Below are positions 44,081-54,168 of a stretch of DNA of 64,000 nucleotides, in pieces. How positions within the stretch are numbered: position 1 is the first letter of the stretch; each line of letters starts with the position of its first letter. The translations under genes were made by a program, and so were the position numbers. The notes under the pieces are model-generated. The model made no database searches and had not been told where the DNA came from. It saw only the letters and a program-made list of their open reading frames with translations. Source of the DNA: an uncultured Bacteroidota bacterium (lineage in GTDB: Bacteria; Bacteroidota; Bacteroidia; B-17B0; Aurantibacillaceae); the NCBI GenBank assembly GCA_903834765.1, contig CAILKE010000023.1:62001-126000 (forward strand), read 5' to 3'.

Positions 44081-45736
44081 TTATTCTTTAATAAATTTAC
44101 TAGTATACAATCCGTTTACTGTTTTAATAGAAACACAATAAATTCCATTTGCTATGTCTGAAGGAAAAGTTATGTTGTATTGATTTGAATTAATTATATT
44201 TAAAGTAAATGGTATATGATTTCCTAAAACGTCAATTATAATAATATTTTCTGGAGTTTTATTTAAACTAAAACTAATTGAACTTTTAGTTGGATTAGGA
44301 TAAAGCGAAATATTTTGTTTTTCAAATTCCTCGTTTAATGATTGGGTAATTAAAAAATTATGTGCGGCGCACATATTTGGAATTCCCCAACCATAATTAT
44401 TATCGGGAGTTGCAGATTGGGTAGCTGTGGCTTTAATGGCATGTAAAATTTCCATATTAGTTTTGGTTGGATGCGCTTGCCATAAACAAGCTACAGCGCC
44501 TGCTAAAACAGGCGTAGCGAATGATGTTCCATTACCAGCTGTGAAATTATAACCTGGTTGACATACATAGGTTCCTTCGCCCATGGTACTTAAATCGGGC
44601 TTTATACGTCCGTCGGCAGTTGGCCCAACAGAACTGAAATTAGAATGTATGCCACTTCCATTTACGGATCCAACTGTGCAAATACTATCAGCATCCGCAG
44701 GAACACCTATATACATCCACGAACCACCACCTTCGTTTCCAGCGGCATTCAATACAAATAATCCTTTACGAACAGCCATAGTTGCCGCAATAGAAGCAAC
44801 GGATGTTCGTCCATTCAAATCAGCATAAACATGATTATCAGCAGTATTATCAAAGGTGGTATATCCTAATGATGTGGTTGTTATATCTGCACCAACACTA
44901 TCAGCAAATTCGGCAGCTACCACCCAATTACATTCTTCAATTAATTTTTCAGAACTTACATCTTCAGAGCGAAGTAACCAAAAATTAGCTTTAGGTCCAG
45001 TGCCAATTAAATTTCCTGGCGAATTTCCTGCGATAATTGATAACACCATCGCTCCATGAGAATCATCTTCATATACAGATGTATTCCCCATTACATAATC
45101 TCGTGTTCCTAAAATACGTCCTTCATTTCGAAGCGAATCAAATACAGGGTTGATATCTGCTTGACTAAAACCATCATCAATAACAGCAATGGTCATGTTC
45201 TGCCCTCTAAAACCTAGGTCATGCATACAGTCTGCACCAATTTGGCTTGCTTGCGTAATTGAAGGTCCGTAATTATAACTCGTTACATGTTTAGTTGATT
45301 TATATGCTGAGGTTACAGGCTCTTTAGTTTCATTTATTTTTTTTATTTGAACGTTAGAATGTCTTCCAACTTGTGATGAACTTAATACACAACTTAAACT
45401 ATTAATTGCAGTCAATTGAGAAGCGTTAGTTACAAAAACAATTGCCGCATTCAACCATTTTGAAGTTTCGAACACTACAGCTCCTGTAGCATTTACAGCA
45501 TTAATGTAATTTTGATTTACAGGAACATCAGTTAAATCAACACTAATATTATGTGCAGTTCTTCTCGCAATAGATTTTGCTGATAAAAAAGCACCAGGGT
45601 TAGAAATAGAGTAGGGCGAACCAGATTTGTCTTTAAATTTTACCCAGTATTTAGTTATAGTTTGAGCATTTAATCCATTTGCTATAGAAATGAATAAGCA
45701 AGCAATAATTGAAATTTTTAATTTATTCAGAGCCAT
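44081..45736 (-). CDS. Subtilisin-like serine protease with type IX (type A) sorting domain
   Basis: 551 residues. A signal peptide (ISIIACLFISIANGLNAQ) and a propeptide-like region (~25-150) precede the S8 catalytic domain. The catalytic residues are Asp187 (AVIDDGFSQ), His227 (DDSHGAMV) and Ser405 (GNGTSFATPV), and the oxyanion Asn334 is in AAGNEGGG. The last ~75 residues are a type A sorting domain (LYPNPTKSSISFSLN, IIIDVLGNHIPF, GIYCVSIKTVNGLYTSKFIKE). The protease is predicted to be secreted or surface-bound and to degrade extracellular protein. Its ATG overlaps the end of the lipoprotein gene by 14 bases, so the two are probably translated together. Confidence 0.94.
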   Translation of the reverse strand: MALNKLKISIIACLFISIANGLNAQTITKYWVKFKDKSGSPYSISNPGAFLSAKSIARRTAHNISVDLTDVPVNQNYINAVNATGAVVFETSKWLNAAIVFVTNASQLTAINSLSCVLSSSQVGRHSNVQIKKINETKEPVTSAYKSTKHVTSYNYGPSITQASQIGADCMHDLGFRGQNMTIAVIDDGFSQADINPVFDSLRNEGRILGTRDYVMGNTSVYEDDSHGAMVLSIIAGNSPGNLIGTGPKANFWLLRSEDVSSEKLIEECNWVVAAEFADSVGADITTTSLGYTTFDNTADNHVYADLNGRTSVASIAATMAVRKGLFVLNAAGNEGGGSWMYIGVPADADSICTVGSVNGSGIHSNFSSVGPTADGRIKPDLSTMGEGTYVCQPGYNFTAGNGTSFATPVLAGAVACLWQAHPTKTNMEILHAIKATATQSATPDNNYGWGIPNMCAAHNFLITQSLNEEFEKQNISLYPNPTKSSISFSLNKTPENIIIIDVLGNHIPFTLNIINSNQYNITFPSDIANGIYCVSIKTVNGLYTSKFIKE

Positions 45737-46412
45737 GAGTCACGTAAGTTAATTTATAAATAATACCTTTTTCGATTCTTTGTTCAACAGGTTTAATTGT
45801 ACCATTAGGATTTTGAGTTACCGTATTCGAATATAAATCTTTTATTTCACGATACACTAATCCAACATTCTTTGCATATTTTTCAATGTAAAACTGACGA
45901 TGAATTGCATTTTTACTTTTATCATCTTTTTGTTCCACGTACAATACATTATCAAAAGCAGTCCCATTAATGGTTTCAGTGTTGTTTACATAATTGTATG
46001 TATAATCCCATTCGCCTAATATATTATTTGCGTTTCCGTTCCATATTGCGCCTTGATTAGCTGGAAACGCTAATTTTGTAAAACGGATATCTTCTTCAAC
46101 GACTTCTAAAGTTGTTTTTGTTTTGGTGTATGACCAAACATCTTTTAAAACCCACGACATATTATCATAACTCACTAAAGGATTGTATTTTTTGATGTAA
46201 CGAATCAATTTAATGGCGTCCCTCCCTTGGTTATCTGTAATAGCCTCTGCCAAATGCTCTTTTATACGATATTTAGAGTAAGTAGTATCATGATGAAAAT
46301 CATCATAAATAGTAGAATCAACATCATACACTACGTACTTTCCTATGTTTATGGGCGCATAATCATAACCCACGTCAGGTGTAGTTTCGGTTTTATTTTT
46401 ACAGCCTATCAA
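45723..46412 (-). CDS. Lipoprotein of unknown function coupled to the protease gene
   Basis: 229 residues from a TTG at 46412, but this start leaves only three residues before the lipobox Cys. The frame is open further upstream and encodes a proper lipoprotein signal (KNNYIAFIFVFFSVLIGC). No ATG, GTG or TTG lies there; the best start would be ATC at 46461-46463 or 46458-46460. The mature part is beta-rich and soluble (GYDYAPINIGKYVVYDVDST, AKNVGLVYREIKDLYS); no named family is recognised. It is probably anchored to a membrane. Its stop overlaps the protease start, so it may be a partner or inhibitor (inference). Confidence 0.72.
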   Translation of the reverse strand: MIGCKNKTETTPDVGYDYAPINIGKYVVYDVDSTIYDDFHHDTTYSKYRIKEHLAEAITDNQGRDAIKLIRYIKKYNPLVSYDNMSWVLKDVWSYTKTKTTLEVVEEDIRFTKLAFPANQGAIWNGNANNILGEWDYTYNYVNNTETINGTAFDNVLYVEQKDDKSKNAIHRQFYIEKYAKNVGLVYREIKDLYSNTVTQNPNGTIKPVEQRIEKGIIYKLTYVTHGSE

Positions 46413-46682
46413 TACTGAAAAGAAAACAAATATGAATGCTATGTAATTATTTTTTTGGATGATTAAAATTACTGATAAATTATGATGAATGCAATACGGG
46501 TGAATTTATGGAGTTTTCTTACAATAAAAATCCCTCATATAAAGCAAAACTAAAAAATTGTGTATTTAAATATTAACAAGACCATTTGGCTTTTAACCAA
46601 TCAATCTAATACGTATTTTTTATGGATTAATAGTTGTAATTTTACATTTCATAATTGGAATATATAACAATATAAATTGCTT

Positions 46683-47117
46683 ATGACGAAACATGAAATG
46701 ATTAATATACTCTATGTCGATGACGAAGAGTATAATTTAATATACTTTGTCGCTGTCTTTAGAAGGTATTTTAATGTGTTTACAGCTTTATCTGCCAAAG
46801 AAGCGGAAGTAACTCTTGCCCAAAACGATATTCATGTGTTAATTACAGACCAGCGTATGCCCATAAAATTAGGAACAGAATTATTGGCTGACTCTGTGAA
46901 AAAATAGCCAGAGCAAACTCGAATAATTATGACAGCTTTTAACGAAACTATAGAAATTAAAGAGGCAATCAAAAAGGGGTATGTTTTTAGATCAATTGAA
47001 AAGCCATGGAATGAGGAAGAATTGAAGGACGCAATAATTTTAGGTTACGAATCTTATATTTGGAAAATCACTAGAAAAAAAATCATTGATGATTTAGATA
47101 ATAATGCTAAACAATGA
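46683..47117 (+). pseudogene. Response regulator receiver gene broken by an in-frame stop
   Basis: The receiver fold begins MINILYVDDEEYNLIYF and reaches the phospho-acceptor in VLITDQRMPIKLGTELL. A single TAG at 46905-46907 then ends the frame. The same frame continues directly with PEQTRIIMTAFNETIEIKEA and SIEKPWNEEELKDAIILGYE, the second half of the receiver. The sequence around the stop suggests a Tyr codon (TAT or TAC) changed to TAG. No output domain follows; the frame ends at 47117, abutting the convergent XRE gene. It may be a remnant of a longer regulator like the one at the left edge. Read-through or a sequencing error would be the alternatives. Confidence 0.75.
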
Positions 47118-47513
47118 TTATATCATTACAAAAATTGGAGGACCATCATCACCAACAATAAAATTTCTTCGGTATTGTCTTACTTCTATTTCTAAATCGG
47201 CTATCTTTAAATTCATCATCTTTATTCTCCATTTTAGCTGGTCAATTAAAGCTTTATCAACATCTTTATTTTCCGCTAGATTCGCTTCGGAAGCGCCTTG
47301 TTGATAATTTAAAAAATCACTTGGAGTAAGATTAAAAGAGTTGCATATATTATTTAGGATCTTATCTGAAAAATTTACTTTTCCGCGCTCAATTTTACTG
47401 TAGTTTTGCTGTGTGATTCCAAACAAAATGGCAGCTTCCGATTGTTTCATGTTATTTTTTTCACGCAAATTTTTTAAATGTTGGCCTAAGTAAACATTTA
47501 CATAATTTTCCAT
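47118..47513 (-). CDS. XRE-family transcriptional regulator
   Basis: 131 residues from the ATG at 47513; a GTG at 47549 would add 12 residues but none of the domain. The helix-turn-helix covers residues ~8-62 (LREKNNMKQSEAAILFGITQQNYSKIERG), a Cro/C1-type fold. The rest is a helical, partly coiled-coil tail (DQLKWRIKMMNLKIADLEIEVRQ), suited to dimerisation. It probably binds operator DNA near its own gene. It is divergent from the fibre/secretion gene run starting at 47703, which it may control (inference), and convergent with the broken response regulator gene. Confidence 0.86.
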   Translation of the reverse strand: MENYVNVYLGQHLKNLREKNNMKQSEAAILFGITQQNYSKIERGKVNFSDKILNNICNSFNLTPSDFLNYQQGASEANLAENKDVDKALIDQLKWRIKMMNLKIADLEIEVRQYRRNFIVGDDGPPIFVMI

Positions 47514-47557
47514 ATAATATATTTTGTATACTAATTTATAATATAACACATTACAAA

Positions 47558-47591
47558 AAGAATAAATGTTTATAATTCTTCATTTATTCTT
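47558..47591. terminator. Hairpin with flanking T-tracts between the XRE gene and the fibre operon
   Basis: AAGAATAAATG (47558-47568) pairs with CATTTATTCTT (47581-47591), an 11-bp perfect stem with a 12-base loop. T-runs follow the stem on both strands. It could be a bidirectional terminator, an attenuator for the XRE transcript or an operator; these cannot be told apart. Confidence 0.5.
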
Positions 47592-47702
47592 ACTTTTTTT
47601 TCAATATACAACCATATAGGATGTACAAAACATGGTTTTTGATTTGGCTATCGACGAATTTTTTAGAAATCTTTCGACATAATAATTATTAAACATTTAT
47701 TT

Positions 47703-49151
47703 ATGAAAAAACAATTCTCCATTGCCATAGCTTGCATAGCCATTAGCTTAGCTTCACAGGCTCAAACAGTAACAACTACAACTATTACTGGTAACTTAAA
47801 GGTAAACGACTCTTTACATGTAGTCAATAATATTTCCACAGCAGGCGATGTAAAAGCAACTGGCGAGGTAATATCTAAAGATACCATGCGTGCCCAAAAA
47901 GATATTTTAATTGACGGTAATGCTGTTGTTGGCGGCGATATGAAAGTTGCAGGGACAACATCGGTTAGTGATTTAAATAGTTCAGGTGTAAGTAATTTAA
48001 AAACCGTATCAATATCCGATAAGCTAGTTTTTGCTGGAGGTATGGCGCTTAAATCTATAATTAATACGATAACAGGCACAACTGATTTTAATTTAGGGGG
48101 AGGTTCATCAATAACGGGACCTAGCACTTACTTAGATAATAGCCCTTGTTATGATATGCCAAACATTAGTTCGTTAAATTATCAAGATGGCAAAATGACG
48201 TTTTGGGGAGTAAGAACTGCTGGTACAAAAGCTTTAACTATTGGATATGATGCCTATGGTTTTATTGAATCATCGGGAGGCAATACGCCTAACGCTAATA
48301 AATTATTTATAAATTACCGTTGTGGGCAAGATATTAATATGTGTACTGGAACGGGAGTTGGCGCAGGTGTGACAACTGCGGGAATTGCTGGTGGTGTGGT
48401 AGCTACAGGGCAAAATGTAGAAATTGGCTTGCCAACTCGTAATATGCAAGCCTCATTAAATATGCTTGTAAAAAGTACAATGCAAGATGCGTTAGTTATT
48501 AAAAGCAAAAGTAATTTGTTTACGAATGATGTAGATCTATTTTCTATTGGAGCAAAAGGCGGTGTAAAAATTACGGCTACAAGTAATTCGATAAATGATG
48601 CCGGCTTTACGCCTTATGCTTTATCTGTATACAATAAAGTTAGAGGGAGAGAAGTATTAAATGTAACAAATGGCGGTGCGCTTAAATTAACCACAGATAA
48701 TACGCCCGTAAATTCTTCCGGTACATTTATTATTAATAATGCTACTTTAAATAAAAATGTATTTATTATAAAACCTGACGGCACAACAGGCATTGGCACA
48801 CCACTAACCAATAATCCAAACAATTATAAGTTAGCGGTAAACGGCATGATAGGCGCAAAGGAAATTAAAGTAGAAATAGTAAATACTACTTGGGCTGATT
48901 TTGTATTCGAAAAAAACTACAACTTAATGTCTTTGGCGAATGTGGAAGCGTATATTTTAAAACATAAACATTTGCCAAATGTGCCAACAGTAGCAGATGT
49001 AGAAGCAAATAATGGAATTGAAATAGGAAAAACACAGACGTTATTATTGCAAAAAATAGAAGAATTAACGTTATATTTAATAAACGAGAGTAAGCGTATT
49101 GAAAAACTAGAACAAGAAAATGCTCTGCTAAAACAACAACCTAAAAAATAA
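47703..49151 (+). CDS. Exported fibre-like protein (tail-fibre/adhesin type)
   Basis: 482 residues. A signal peptide (FSIAIACIAISLASQAQ) is followed by a repetitive beta region with Val/Gly turns (GDVKATGEVISKDTMRAQKD, GNAVVGGDMKVAGTTSVSDL). A middle region follows, and the C-terminal part (residues ~380-482) resembles the trimerising end of tail-fibre-like or surface proteins of Bacteroidota: KLAVNGMIGAKEIKVEI, then FEKNYNLMSLANVEAYILKH with KHLPNVPTVADVE, then a coiled coil (KIEELTLYLINESKRIEKLEQ). It probably forms a trimeric surface stalk. It leads a run of four genes spaced 3-5 bases apart. Confidence 0.82.
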   Translation: MKKQFSIAIACIAISLASQAQTVTTTTITGNLKVNDSLHVVNNISTAGDVKATGEVISKDTMRAQKDILIDGNAVVGGDMKVAGTTSVSDLNSSGVSNLKTVSISDKLVFAGGMALKSIINTITGTTDFNLGGGSSITGPSTYLDNSPCYDMPNISSLNYQDGKMTFWGVRTAGTKALTIGYDAYGFIESSGGNTPNANKLFINYRCGQDINMCTGTGVGAGVTTAGIAGGVVATGQNVEIGLPTRNMQASLNMLVKSTMQDALVIKSKSNLFTNDVDLFSIGAKGGVKITATSNSINDAGFTPYALSVYNKVRGREVLNVTNGGALKLTTDNTPVNSSGTFIINNATLNKNVFIIKPDGTTGIGTPLTNNPNNYKLAVNGMIGAKEIKVEIVNTTWADFVFEKNYNLMSLANVEAYILKHKHLPNVPTVADVEANNGIEIGKTQTLLLQKIEELTLYLINESKRIEKLEQENALLKQQPKK

Positions 49152-49156
49152 AATAT

Positions 49157-49849
49157 ATGACACGTTTATTGTATATAATCATCATCAGTATAGCTGTAAT
49201 TGTAACTTCTTGTAAAAAAGAATCGCAACAACCAAGCGCAGGTACCGGCGCAGCAGGACCTCCTTATACAGTAACAGACTATCCGCATCAAATTGGTGAT
49301 ACCTGCTACTATACAATAAAAAAGACACAAACAGAAACGTATTATGACGGAACGCCTCCTAATATTTATCACATGACTGCGTCAAATTATTTAACGCTGC
49401 TTGCAGACAGTACTTTGCCAAATGGTACTATTGGTAAAATATGGTATTTAAGTAGCTGTGCCATTATGGGTGGTTATAAGCAATTGGTTTATTTTGACAG
49501 TACATTAGCTTGTAACGTTTTTAAACCAGTTGGTACTGTTTACTATGTTTATCCTTTAATGATACAAATGCCACTACAGCAAAATACTACTTGGGCCAAT
49601 ACAGTTAATATGCCAAATGACACTTGTAAAGCGCTTAATTATGAATTATATAATGTAGGTACAAAACTTTATAATATAATTAATGTAAAAAGAAGGTTTT
49701 ATGACGCTGTTAATGGAACCTTTTGGTCTTTTGATTATAAAATGGGAAATACGGGCATAATACAAACGTTGCAAGTAGAATCAACTGTTTATAGCACTTT
49801 TGATCACACAATTGAAATTGAAATAACCTTAGACCATGCTAATTTTTAA
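49157..49849 (+). CDS. Lipoprotein of unknown function (fibre operon)
   Basis: 230 residues. The lipoprotein signal (LYIIIISIAVIVTSC) ends at Cys19 and is followed by a Lys- and Gln-rich stretch. The mature part is beta-rich (YTVTDYPHQIGDTCYYTIKK, KIWYLSSCAIMGGYKQLVYF, FWSFDYKMGNTGII) without a recognised family. It contains several Cys residues that could form disulfides. It starts five bases after the fibre-like gene and is likely anchored to the outer membrane, perhaps holding a partner from the same gene run (inference). Confidence 0.78.
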   Translation: MTRLLYIIIISIAVIVTSCKKESQQPSAGTGAAGPPYTVTDYPHQIGDTCYYTIKKTQTETYYDGTPPNIYHMTASNYLTLLADSTLPNGTIGKIWYLSSCAIMGGYKQLVYFDSTLACNVFKPVGTVYYVYPLMIQMPLQQNTTWANTVNMPNDTCKALNYELYNVGTKLYNIINVKRRFYDAVNGTFWSFDYKMGNTGIIQTLQVESTVYSTFDHTIEIEITLDHANF

Positions 49850-49852
49850 CTT

Positions 49853-50329
49853 ATGATACAAAACATTCGAACCTATAGTTTAATTTTAATATGTGGGCTA
49901 CTAGTTGTTGCCTGCAAAAAATATCCCGAAGGTGGATATATTTATAAACGAGATACAGATATACAAAGACAATGGTATTTAACTTTATATGAAGTAGATG
50001 GTATAGATAGCACTGATTTAATTAATTACAATAATGATGTTAGTTATAAAAACATTAGATTTTTAAAAAGAAATTCTAATGACCCAGACATTTCTGTATT
50101 TACATCTGGCTCGTATTATAGTCCTTCTCGTTTTACGAACAGCAATAAAAACTTAAATTTTTATAAAAGTAATCCGTCAAGTGTTATTTGTAATTCTGGA
50201 TTTTGCTTTAAAGCTTATTGTGCGCCTGAGGGGCTTAGTGTTCAATGGGAAATTATTCAGCTTACTTCAACGGATATGATATTAACCTGTAGATTAAATC
50301 ATAGTTATAAATTAAAATTTAAATCTTAA
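49853..50329 (+). CDS. Small lipoprotein of unknown function (fibre operon)
   Basis: 158 residues. The signal (YSLILICGLLVVAC) ends in a lipobox Cys at residue 21, followed by KKYPEGG. The body is a small beta-sandwich-like sequence with WYLTLYEVDGIDSTDLINY, a lipocalin-like opening, and VQWEIIQLTSTDMILTCRL, a lipocalin-like closing strand. It resembles small calycin-type Bacteroidota lipoproteins, but the match is only by general pattern. Three bases separate it from the previous gene and four from the next one, so it is almost certainly co-transcribed. Confidence 0.76.
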   Translation: MIQNIRTYSLILICGLLVVACKKYPEGGYIYKRDTDIQRQWYLTLYEVDGIDSTDLINYNNDVSYKNIRFLKRNSNDPDISVFTSGSYYSPSRFTNSNKNLNFYKSNPSSVICNSGFCFKAYCAPEGLSVQWEIIQLTSTDMILTCRLNHSYKLKFKS

Positions 50330-50333
50330 TTGT

Positions 50334-52739
50334 ATGAAAATAATATTATTTTTTTGTTTATTAATCAGTTGTTCAGTTTTACGAAGCCAAAACATTGATA
50401 ATGATAAGGCACACCGGCGCTATTGGTATTATCGTACCCGTATGATAAATGACTTTATAAAAATAGGAAAAAACCAAGGGGATTGCATTATTTTTGCGGA
50501 GAGAAATACTGGAGAAGATAATAGTAATGCGAATGGTCCAGAACTCACATCTACGGTAGGACCTGATCAAATTGATATCACAAATCAGTATATGATAGCC
50601 TTAGCTTTGGAGTATAAAATACTAAGTCGTAATCATCAAAGTACGGAAGAAACCATCAAAGAATTATATCATTTATTATATACTCTTAATCGGTTGGATT
50701 TGGAAGCAGAACAGTTTTTTGATAGTTCGCCACCAACTAGCGATCATATTCAGCAATCAGGCTTATTAAATGGTTTTATTTTACGTGAAGATATGCCTAG
50801 CGATTATTTCACTGCTAATAACAACGAAAATTTTGTTCATTATAATTATGAATTATTAGAACATAATTATCCACAACAACCAAATCCACTCGAAAGCTAT
50901 AATGGTTTTACTGGTATACAGCATACTAATGCGCAGAATCCTGATAGTAAGTTCAAAAATTTTTTCATGGGAAATACTTCAAAAGAAGAAATAACATTGG
51001 TGCAAGAGAAATATCAAAGCTTATTAATTGCATTAATGTTTATTACTAAATACATACCTGATAATACTTATTATGTTCCTAATACTCCTAATGGAAATAC
51101 TACTCCTGATGTTTTTCAAGATGGAATAGCGGGCATAAAAGAAGAAGCTAGACAAATTGCCACAAGATGTTATACTTATTTAAAAAACCCTAATGGTTAT
51201 TGGAGTTTAAAACTAGTAAATTCAGCTGGCGTAAGCTCTGGGTCTCCTGCGGTTGGAGCTTCTGCGTATGTTTATGCGTGGTCTTTAAGTAGAGAGGCTT
51301 GTATGGCTAATCGTGATTTTCCTTGGAATCAAACGTTCTCTAATCAATTATTGTGCAATAATTTTAATGATACGTATGCAATAACTGTTGGGTTTGCTTT
51401 ATATAATACTATGAGTCAATTGGCAATACCTGGTTATAATGACGTGTTCGTTACCTTAGCTTATTCTCATGCAGGCAGTGATACAGACCCTTCTTTATTT
51501 GGAGGCACCACGCCTACTCCAATAGCTCAGGCTATGCAAATAAATACTTCTGCAAAAAATTTGCAATGGGCAGAAATCTTGCGCAAAGTATTACATCAGG
51601 ACGAAGTTTTATTTAGACAATTAAATGATTATGCAACTCCTTTAGAATCGGCTCCTTGCCAAGGCCCTTATAATTACGGGAATTGCGTTAATGGTGGTTG
51701 GGAATGGTCATCACAAGATAGAGACGAACACCAAGGGGCTAGAGGGGCAGGTTGTCCTGGATATGCTGGTGGCTTTTACGGTAATTACCCTGGCGTAGAT
51801 TATATGTTAGCTCATAATTTATATTATGAATATCAAAACCAATTGTTAGATGGTAACCAAGGTAATAACTCAAATTCCCCGTCCTATAATATATTATCTT
51901 GGATTTATAACGTAACATCTGGTGTTTGGCAAAGTGTTTATGGTAATGGTGGCTCTGGCAGTGGCTATAATTTAGCAGGTTATAATGAGGCCATTAATTA
52001 TATGGATAATTTAGATGCCAGTGTTTGGCCAAGAACCATAACACAAAATGGAATAAGTTCAATTATAGGAACAACTATTAGTCCTTCAAAAGTAGCCGTA
52101 TATCAAAACTTAAAATCAACAGCTCATGTTTATTTTAAACATTCTATAGCCGCACTTTCCAATAATACGCCATCAGATGTTACTTACAGGGCTGGTAAAG
52201 AAATATCGTTATTACCGGGCTTTCAGGTGGATGCTGGTAGTACCTTTCATGCTTATATTCTTCGTTATGTATGCACTGGTAATGCAGATGCTTTGAATAT
52301 GAGGCATATTCATGATTCTGCCACCTTAGCAAATGCACATTTAATGGATTATGAGTCTGATGAAATGAATCCTATTCCTATGCATTATATTGAGAGCCCT
52401 AAATCTGATGCTGATAAAACTCCTGTAGTGCCTATTAATAGTGAAGATGATAATTCATTACCGTTAATAGCGGATGGTATCGTACATCCAGCCTCTGAGT
52501 TTACAATGCAACCAAACCCTAGCACAGGTATTTTTAAAGTATTTACACAAAAAGAAATAGATAACGAAACATTATCAATTCATATTTACGATATGCGTGG
52601 GCAATTAATAAATTCTTATGCAGATGTTACTCCTGAATTTGAAATTAATTTGTCAGGTTACAGTAAAGGTATTTATATGGTTCAATTGATGTCAACCTCG
52701 GGTAAAGTTTCATCTAAGCGCGTTGATATAATAGAGTAG
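50334..52739 (+). CDS. Large secreted protein with type IX (type A) sorting domain (fibre operon)
   Basis: 801 residues. A signal peptide (IILFFCLLISCSVLRSQ) is followed by a mostly helical domain (~30-530), with QYMIALALEYKILSRNHQST and VYAWSLSREACMANRDFPWN. That pattern is reminiscent of alpha/alpha-toroid enzymes, but no catalytic family is recognised. A Cys- and Gly-rich segment (DEHQGARGAGCPGYAGGFYG) lies near 470. A short repeat found in many Bacteroidota secreted proteins lies near 630 (YRAGKEISLLPGFQVDAGSTF), and a type A sorting domain forms the end (QPNPSTGIFKVFTQKE, IYDMRGQLINSY, KGIYMVQLMSTSG). It closes the four-gene run. Secretion is safe; activity is unknown. Confidence 0.82.
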   Translation: MKIILFFCLLISCSVLRSQNIDNDKAHRRYWYYRTRMINDFIKIGKNQGDCIIFAERNTGEDNSNANGPELTSTVGPDQIDITNQYMIALALEYKILSRNHQSTEETIKELYHLLYTLNRLDLEAEQFFDSSPPTSDHIQQSGLLNGFILREDMPSDYFTANNNENFVHYNYELLEHNYPQQPNPLESYNGFTGIQHTNAQNPDSKFKNFFMGNTSKEEITLVQEKYQSLLIALMFITKYIPDNTYYVPNTPNGNTTPDVFQDGIAGIKEEARQIATRCYTYLKNPNGYWSLKLVNSAGVSSGSPAVGASAYVYAWSLSREACMANRDFPWNQTFSNQLLCNNFNDTYAITVGFALYNTMSQLAIPGYNDVFVTLAYSHAGSDTDPSLFGGTTPTPIAQAMQINTSAKNLQWAEILRKVLHQDEVLFRQLNDYATPLESAPCQGPYNYGNCVNGGWEWSSQDRDEHQGARGAGCPGYAGGFYGNYPGVDYMLAHNLYYEYQNQLLDGNQGNNSNSPSYNILSWIYNVTSGVWQSVYGNGGSGSGYNLAGYNEAINYMDNLDASVWPRTITQNGISSIIGTTISPSKVAVYQNLKSTAHVYFKHSIAALSNNTPSDVTYRAGKEISLLPGFQVDAGSTFHAYILRYVCTGNADALNMRHIHDSATLANAHLMDYESDEMNPIPMHYIESPKSDADKTPVVPINSEDDNSLPLIADGIVHPASEFTMQPNPSTGIFKVFTQKEIDNETLSIHIYDMRGQLINSYADVTPEFEINLSGYSKGIYMVQLMSTSGKVSSKRVDIIE

Positions 52740-52820
52740 GTATAAAAGTTTATTAAAAATCAGGGTTGCCTTTAAATAAAAGTTTAAATTCGTGGCAAAT
52801 TACTTTAAACTTATATTTCT

Positions 52821-53978
52821 ATGTCTGATTTTTCAAATTATAAATTTGGTACCAAGGCCATACATGCAGGCGCAGAGCCTGATCCATCAACCGGTGCTAT
52901 TATGACACCTATTTTCCAAACATCTACTTATGTTCAGGAATCGCCTGGTACTAATAAAGGATATGGATATGCTCGTGGAAAAAATCCAACGAGAGAAGCC
53001 TTACAAAAAAATATTGCTGCCTTAGAAAATGGTAAGCACTGCATATGCTTTAGCAGTGGAATGGGAGCCACAGATGCTGTGATGCGTATGTTACGTCCAG
53101 GCGATGAAGTTATTACAGGTGATGATTTGTATGGCGGTTCTTACCGTATGTTTACAAAAATTTATGAAAATTATGGCATCAAATTTCATTTCATTAATTT
53201 AACTAATGCAGATAATATTAAAAAATACATTAACGCCAATACCAAATTAATTTGGGCTGAAACACCTACCAATCCTACAATGCAGATTATTGACATTGAG
53301 GCTTGTTCAAAAATTGCCAAAGAACATAAGTTGTTGTTAGCAGTTGATAATACCTTTGCGTCACCATATTTACAAAATCCTTTAGCGTTAGGTGCTGATA
53401 TCGTTATGCATTCTGTTACCAAATATTTAGGCGGACATAGTGATGTAGTGATGGGTGCATTAGTTACAAATAGCGATTCATTGCACGAACAAATTTATTT
53501 TATATTAAATAGTTGTGGCGCCAATCCTGGCCCTATGGATTGTTTTTTAGTAATGCGTGGTATTAAAACTTTGCATTTACGCATGGAGCGTCATTGTTTT
53601 AATGGACGTAAAGTTGCCGAATATTTAAAAACACATCCAAAAGTAGAAAAGATATATTGGCCTGGTTTTACTGATCATCCAAACCATGAGATTGCTAAAA
53701 AACAAATGCGTGATTTTGGCGGGATGATTTCAATTGTATTAAAAGGAGCTGATTTAGCAGCAACTTTTAAAATTGCATCTTCTTTTCATGTGTTTTCTTT
53801 AGCTGAATCTTTAGGCGGTGTAGAATCTTTAATTAACCATCCGGTAACGATGACGCATGCTTCTATACCGAAAGCAGAACGTGATAAAGCTGGTGTCGTA
53901 GATAATTTATTAAGATTAAGTGTTGGAGTTGAAGATGTTGAAGACTTAATTGCAGACTTAAAACAAGCTCTAGGTTAA
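52821..53978 (+). CDS. metB: Cystathionine gamma-synthase (trans-sulfuration PLP enzyme)
   Basis: 385 residues, the usual length. The fold-I PLP signatures are TKAIHAGAEPDPSTGAIMTP, YARGKNPTREALQ, the PLP lysine K201 in HSVTKYLGGHSDVVMG, and ESLGGVESLINHPVTMTHAS. The enzyme makes cystathionine from cysteine and an acylated homoserine; a gamma-lyase role is also possible, since the two families are hard to separate by eye. No other methionine gene is adjacent. A well-formed terminator follows the stop at 54005-54040. Confidence 0.9.
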   Translation: MSDFSNYKFGTKAIHAGAEPDPSTGAIMTPIFQTSTYVQESPGTNKGYGYARGKNPTREALQKNIAALENGKHCICFSSGMGATDAVMRMLRPGDEVITGDDLYGGSYRMFTKIYENYGIKFHFINLTNADNIKKYINANTKLIWAETPTNPTMQIIDIEACSKIAKEHKLLLAVDNTFASPYLQNPLALGADIVMHSVTKYLGGHSDVVMGALVTNSDSLHEQIYFILNSCGANPGPMDCFLVMRGIKTLHLRMERHCFNGRKVAEYLKTHPKVEKIYWPGFTDHPNHEIAKKQMRDFGGMISIVLKGADLAATFKIASSFHVFSLAESLGGVESLINHPVTMTHASIPKAERDKAGVVDNLLRLSVGVEDVEDLIADLKQALG

Positions 53979-54004: not shown

Positions 54005-54040
54005 AAAGAGGCTGTTTCAATAGGATAGCCTCTTTTTTTT
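54005..54040 (+). terminator. Intrinsic terminator of metB
   Basis: AAAGAGGCT (54005-54013) pairs with AGCCTCTTT (54027-54035) around a 13-base loop, and the T-tract runs to 54040. The dispersed 25-bp repeat begins at the next base. Confidence 0.85.
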
Positions 54041-54065
54041 GTCACATCGAGCGAAGTCGAGATGC
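54041..54065 (+). repeat. 25-bp dispersed repeat, intergenic copy
   Basis: This copy lies directly behind the metB terminator and is the reference for the valS-internal copy (23 of 25 bases shared) and the diverged copy at 31043-31067. The core is GAGCGAAGTCGAGA. Confidence 0.75.
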
Positions 54066-54168
54066 TTGATGATAAAGGTTTTTAAGTTATTCACGGAATA
54101 GCTTGATTCGAACGCACACAAAACAAACTTTTGAGACAATCTTTTTTATGCGAATTTATTCGTGATTT

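Follow-up and report, generated by a model that had tools for sequence, protein, structure and literature searches.

The type IX secretion system (T9SS) exports very many Bacteroidota proteins, most of them without known function or partners. The genome considered here alone holds approximately 130 stretches with the sorting domain of type A cargo (PF18962/TIGR04183). Variable surface loci often spread and reshuffle by recombination. In Porphyromonas gingivalis, rearrangement of domains and exchange of alleles generate diversity among surface and T9SS proteins (PMC5266723). The TANFOR/BaCT polymorphic toxins of Bacteroidetes, Bacteroidota proteins that have been reported beside T9SS substrates, combine a C-terminal toxin with a downstream immunity gene (PMC7073777).

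We analyzed a 64,000-nucleotide stretch of DNA (the window) from an uncultured Bacteroidota bacterium, in which a regulator-linked module (Table 1) encodes a protein, P801, that carries the same type A sorting domain. Unlike described cargo of this type, P801 has a core that matches no described domain, and its gene is linked to a fibre-like gene (FIB) and a lipoprotein gene. Neither the C-terminal toxin nor the downstream immunity gene of the TANFOR/BaCT systems is seen in the module and, in contrast to the P. gingivalis loci, the whole block from regulator to cargo has been inserted at a new site in this genome. The module resembles a group of Rhs operons in having the same FIB C-terminal domain (FIBC) encoded upstream. 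However, the cargo of those operons is an Rhs protein rather than P801, and a possible immunity gene lies downstream in one case. By the tests applied, the P801 module is not a polymorphic toxin, although it shares its fibre gene with Rhs operons and so may still work like one. A limited literature search, confined to open-access papers, yielded no description of this gene arrangement. We favor the reading that the module is a mobile, mosaic, and regulated cassette that presents a probable helix-rich enzyme at the cell surface together with a lipoprotein and a fibre, and judge this to be reasonably likely.

A first-pass annotation had described a divergent XRE regulator facing four closely packed genes. 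The coordinates, strands, and gaps of 5, 3, and 4 bp between the plus-strand genes for FIB, LP230, LP158, and P801 (from the open reading frame listing and the sequence) bear this out. The two proteins called lipoproteins indeed have visible lipoboxes (VTSC↓KK and VVAC↓KK in LP230 and LP158), and the Por_Secre_tail domain of P801 agrees with the proposal of an 801-residue type IX secreted protein. The wider claim of a tightly spaced, regulator-linked surface module, no part of which is characterized, is likewise supported. That annotation overlooked the response regulator at 46677–47117 and did not recognize that the module is cleanly inserted and mosaic.

Table 1. Coordinates of the module and its parts in the window.
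Feature	Position	Strand	Remarks
Inserted block	46496..52768		~6,273 bp; same site empty in congeners
Receiver-only response regulator, TAG-interrupted	46677..47117	+	PF00072; intact homologue in L046
XRE-family regulator	47118..47513	-	HTH_3; possible longer GTG start at 47549
Divergent intergenic region, conserved block ~47600-47690	47514..47702		Alignment with L046
FIB, secreted fibre-like protein, 482 aa	47703..49151	+	N-terminus, variable middle, FIBC
LP230 lipoprotein, lineage-specific	49157..49849	+	Lipobox; L035 homologue 87% identical
LP158 lipoprotein	49853..50329	+	Lipobox; alignment of 21 homologues
P801, 801 aa	50334..52739	+	Signal peptide, ~480-aa core, GCX_COOH, T9SS type A sorting domain

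P801 is T9SS type A cargo by its sorting domain, which matches both PF18962 (E=3.5e-13) and TIGR04183 (E=4e-11), and export is predicted; the signal peptide was recognized by sequence inspection only. A 3-coathanger domain (GCX_COOH) was also detected (E=9e-13). Matches of the full-length protein in the PDB were to sorting domains or were due to chance. Profile searches, one of the checks proposed in the first-pass annotation, found no relative of the core (~480 residues) in Pfam, NCBIfam, or the PDB, whether run with a single sequence, member by member and with a consensus in Pfam, or with a profile against the PDB. The core is a previously unrecognized, class-wide family for which no family model exists, and 58 of the 395 class genomes contain it (E<=1e-8). 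Across 50 homologues, identity reaches at least 90% at 29 core positions, many of them charged, and the near-invariant residues include R36, D78, E93, E110, R120, D122, D153, W458, D489, and N495. Paired helices are weakly predicted. We regard P801 as a probable helix-rich enzyme whose core most likely acts on an extracellular or neighbour-cell polymer. An AF2 model of the core built from 2 sequences was unusable (pLDDT 31). No member of the family was found in viral contigs or on plasmids. Some P801 forms have no sorting domain or FIB, among them compact proteins of ~420 residues. At loci L086, L088, and L113, P801-like genes that are FIB-free and encode no sorting domain adjoin thioredoxin-like and clpC-like genes, with gyrA-like genes also alongside in L088 and L113; these loci represent a stable form.

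The order FIB, an optional lipoprotein, and P801 recurs in other genomes across the class, as the first-pass annotation had suggested examining. The order is conserved and the genes do not fall into common housekeeping families, the two points on which that annotation had staked its module. In the 49 P801 loci whose upstream sequence exceeds 1.5 kb, FIBC lies upstream in 31 and LP158 in 22. FIB tracks the exported form of P801: FIBC was found upstream of 25 of the 27 P801 genes with a sorting domain versus 6 of the 22 without one (Fisher p=3e-6), and several of these six loci are truncated or interrupted by a contig end. LP158 is the usual immediate neighbour of P801, yet it is missing from some P801 loci. 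For the 22 loci with all three genes, P801 distances correlate more strongly with those of LP158 (Mantel r=0.67) than with those of FIB (0.39). The 21 aligned LP158 homologues share the motifs CKKYPEGG and YEVNGIDST; an AF2 model from 3 sequences was unusable (pLDDT 35). Tandem lipoprotein copies occur with truncated P801 starts at L030, L035, L111, and L115, and the tandem units of ~1.2 kb at L111:5605-8157, each a lipoprotein gene plus a truncated P801 start, are 78 to 91% identical. Note that most genomes are draft assemblies in many contigs, and some are metagenome bins.

FIB consists of a conserved N-terminus (~95 aa), a variable middle, and FIBC, which probably ends in a coiled coil. The "tail-fibre-like trimerising end" of the first-pass annotation is an analogy only, as FIB matches no Pfam fibre family, shows neither a fibre or chaperone domain nor a phage homologue, and gave no tblastn match against 50,697 phage records. 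An assignment to the bactofilins (beta-solenoid; PF04519) was rejected at 14.4 bits against a cut-off of 27.9. FIBC is a distinct and widespread domain, present in 72 of 149 genomes of the class. It occurs only twice in this genome, each time directly upstream of one of the two P801 genes, a linkage that, together with the recurrent gene order, goes beyond chance. In other genomes it also leads operons that encode different T9SS cargo or Rhs proteins. In 40 sampled FIBC loci, a set that omitted loci known to be P801-linked and so under-represents P801 by design, the downstream operon encoded a sorting-domain protein in 21, an Rhs protein in 4, and neither in 15. Sorting-domain genes are concentrated in the first two open reading frames downstream of FIBC (26 of 76, versus 6 of 128 later ones; p=4e-8). 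FIBC genes lead Rhs operons at L157, L160, L169, L171, L176, and L178 and on a Haliovirga plasmid; in two relatives FIB is followed by Rhs proteins of ~2100 aa, with a weak Imm26 match (18.3 bits versus a cut-off of 23.3) behind one of the two. The plasmid, pHIC of Haliovirga abyssi (Fusobacteriota; L238), has five FIB-related places, and a FIBC protein is encoded there in a run of hypothetical genes that precedes a large Rhs gene.

The XRE protein belongs to its family by a clear HTH_3 match (PF01381; E=2e-10, 40.8 bits versus a cut-off of 23), and all PADLOC matches were HTH-containing models for this protein. Homologues begin MENYxNVYLG, which makes the ATG at 47513 the more probable start (131 aa) and leaves 189 bp between it and FIB. 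The response regulator is split by an in-frame TAG at 46905–46907, where relatives have Tyr, and its PF00072 match (E=1e-5) is slightly under the curated cut-off because of that split. Its homologue in L046 of genome G001 is intact and 85% identical, and that in G016 is also intact. The order response regulator (plus), XRE (minus), and FIB (plus) is repeated in L046 and in L031 of G016, with the XRE homologues at the same place; therefore, the response regulator belongs to the module. In L155, a second response regulator–XRE pair lies at a contig end. Between XRE and FIB, positions 47600–47690 of this genome differ hardly at all from their counterpart in G001, and an exact 28-base pattern is shared within the intergenic region. 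We regard the conserved block as a candidate operator. A promoter and terminator scan gave nothing above chance.

The module is flanked by a minus-strand lipoprotein gene starting near 46412 and a PLP-enzyme gene at 52821, and these flanks are ~120 to 290 bp apart in G001 (C43), G003, G004, G005, G007, and G009. Because the flanking genes adjoin in several congeners, the module constitutes one insertion, that is, a genomic island with an empty site in close relatives. Comparison with G001 places its bounds 181 bp before the response regulator and 29 bp after the P801 stop. No integrase or transposase is encoded among the open reading frames of the insert, and its ends show no shared repeat longer than 8 bp, no terminal repeats, and no target duplication. 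In G001, the closest relative, one half of the module (response regulator, XRE, and FIB N-terminus; 82.6% over 1,295 bp) occupies a different site, following a gene for a 117-aa BrxA-like protein whose counterpart in this genome (G000:C4) is without the module. There, this half continues into an unrelated FIB middle and a P801 that is only 28% identical. A separate contig carries the other half (FIB C-terminus, LP230, and LP158; 82.4% over 1,811 bp). Since the matching halves lie at different sites, the cassette is mobile and mosaic; this is most simply explained if it has moved and has also recombined within FIB. In G001, contigs overlap at their ends by 39 and 119 bp, but these overlaps resemble assembly forks and are suggestive only. 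The tail of a chimeric P801 there (L035:2968-3705, L046:8543-8661) matches the end of a second P801 contig exactly over 119 bp. Repeats of ~49 bp on either side of the G000:C55 cassette proved to be terminator-like stem-loops followed by T runs and were discarded as candidate recombination sites. A minus-strand gene beside the insertion (44081–45736), also present in relatives, encodes a Peptidase_S8 subtilase that carries a T9SS sorting domain. A dispersed palindromic repeat at 54005–54100, CACATCGAGCGAAGTCGAGATG, folds better than shuffled sequences (z=-3.5), and short, almost identical matches to it are scattered widely through this genome and those of its relatives.

The first-pass annotation also raised a contact-dependent device, and a corresponding reading makes P801 a surface effector of antagonism and LP158 a lipoprotein protecting the producer. 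The correlated LP158 and P801 distances would fit, as would the extra lipoprotein copies next to truncated P801 genes (L030, L035, L041, L111, and L115) and the use of FIB to head Rhs operons, one with the weak Imm26 match downstream and one on the Haliovirga plasmid. However, searches of Pfam, NCBIfam, PHROGs, and PADLOC found no toxin domain at the C-terminus of P801, as a polymorphic toxin, CDI, or Rhs protein would have; the sorting domain occupies that end. The gene after P801 (52821–53978) encodes a cystathionine synthase-like, PLP-dependent enzyme, lies outside the insertion, and is present in relatives, so no conventional immunity gene follows. Moreover, the P801 core is conserved rather than variable, and P801 exists without LP158, including at the stable loci by clpC- and gyrA-like genes (L086, L088, and L113). 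That the lipoproteins are intact whereas P801 genes are broken was not counted in favor of immunity, since gene lengths predict about that outcome, making it non-discriminating. We consider antagonism unlikely.

Attachment by an adhesin complex of P801 and FIB with no enzymatic function would suit a fibre-like protein, surface-type cargo, and mosaic variation typical of surface antigens, but many charged residues scarcely vary among the 50 homologues, which points to a pocket for catalysis or ligand binding, and these charges are also conserved in compact single-domain forms without FIB or a sorting domain, which makes this reading rather doubtful. That the island is a neutral hitch-hiker, weakly or not expressed in this strain, seems very improbable: its response regulator is broken by a stop and degraded copies exist in G001 and G018, but XRE and the four structural genes are intact and tightly spaced, and their order is conserved across families.

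Under the favored reading of a mobile surface cassette, XRE, originally with the response regulator, would control the divergent promoter. All four products would cross the inner membrane by Sec, as established biology predicts, with LP230 and LP158 then residing in the outer membrane, as expected of lipoproteins. P801 would be exported by the T9SS and remain on the surface, where FIB may form a putative stalk for its presentation or tethering, and where LP158 may serve as the dedicated outer-membrane partner of P801. To judge from conservation alone, the core would act enzymatically on an extracellular polymer or on one of a neighbouring cell. Recombination would spread and reshuffle the cassette.

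A broader arrangement is possible, though we advance it tentatively: FIBC proteins may generally accompany large exported proteins of the Bacteroidota surface, as a shared fibre platform whose cargo (P801, several other T9SS families, or Rhs) is swapped by cassette exchange, with P801 as a new enzyme family that has its own lipoprotein. The empty sites show that such surface modules move as units. A conserved fibre-like gene ahead of sorting-domain and Rhs cargo would provide a handle on how cargo is presented at the cell surface.
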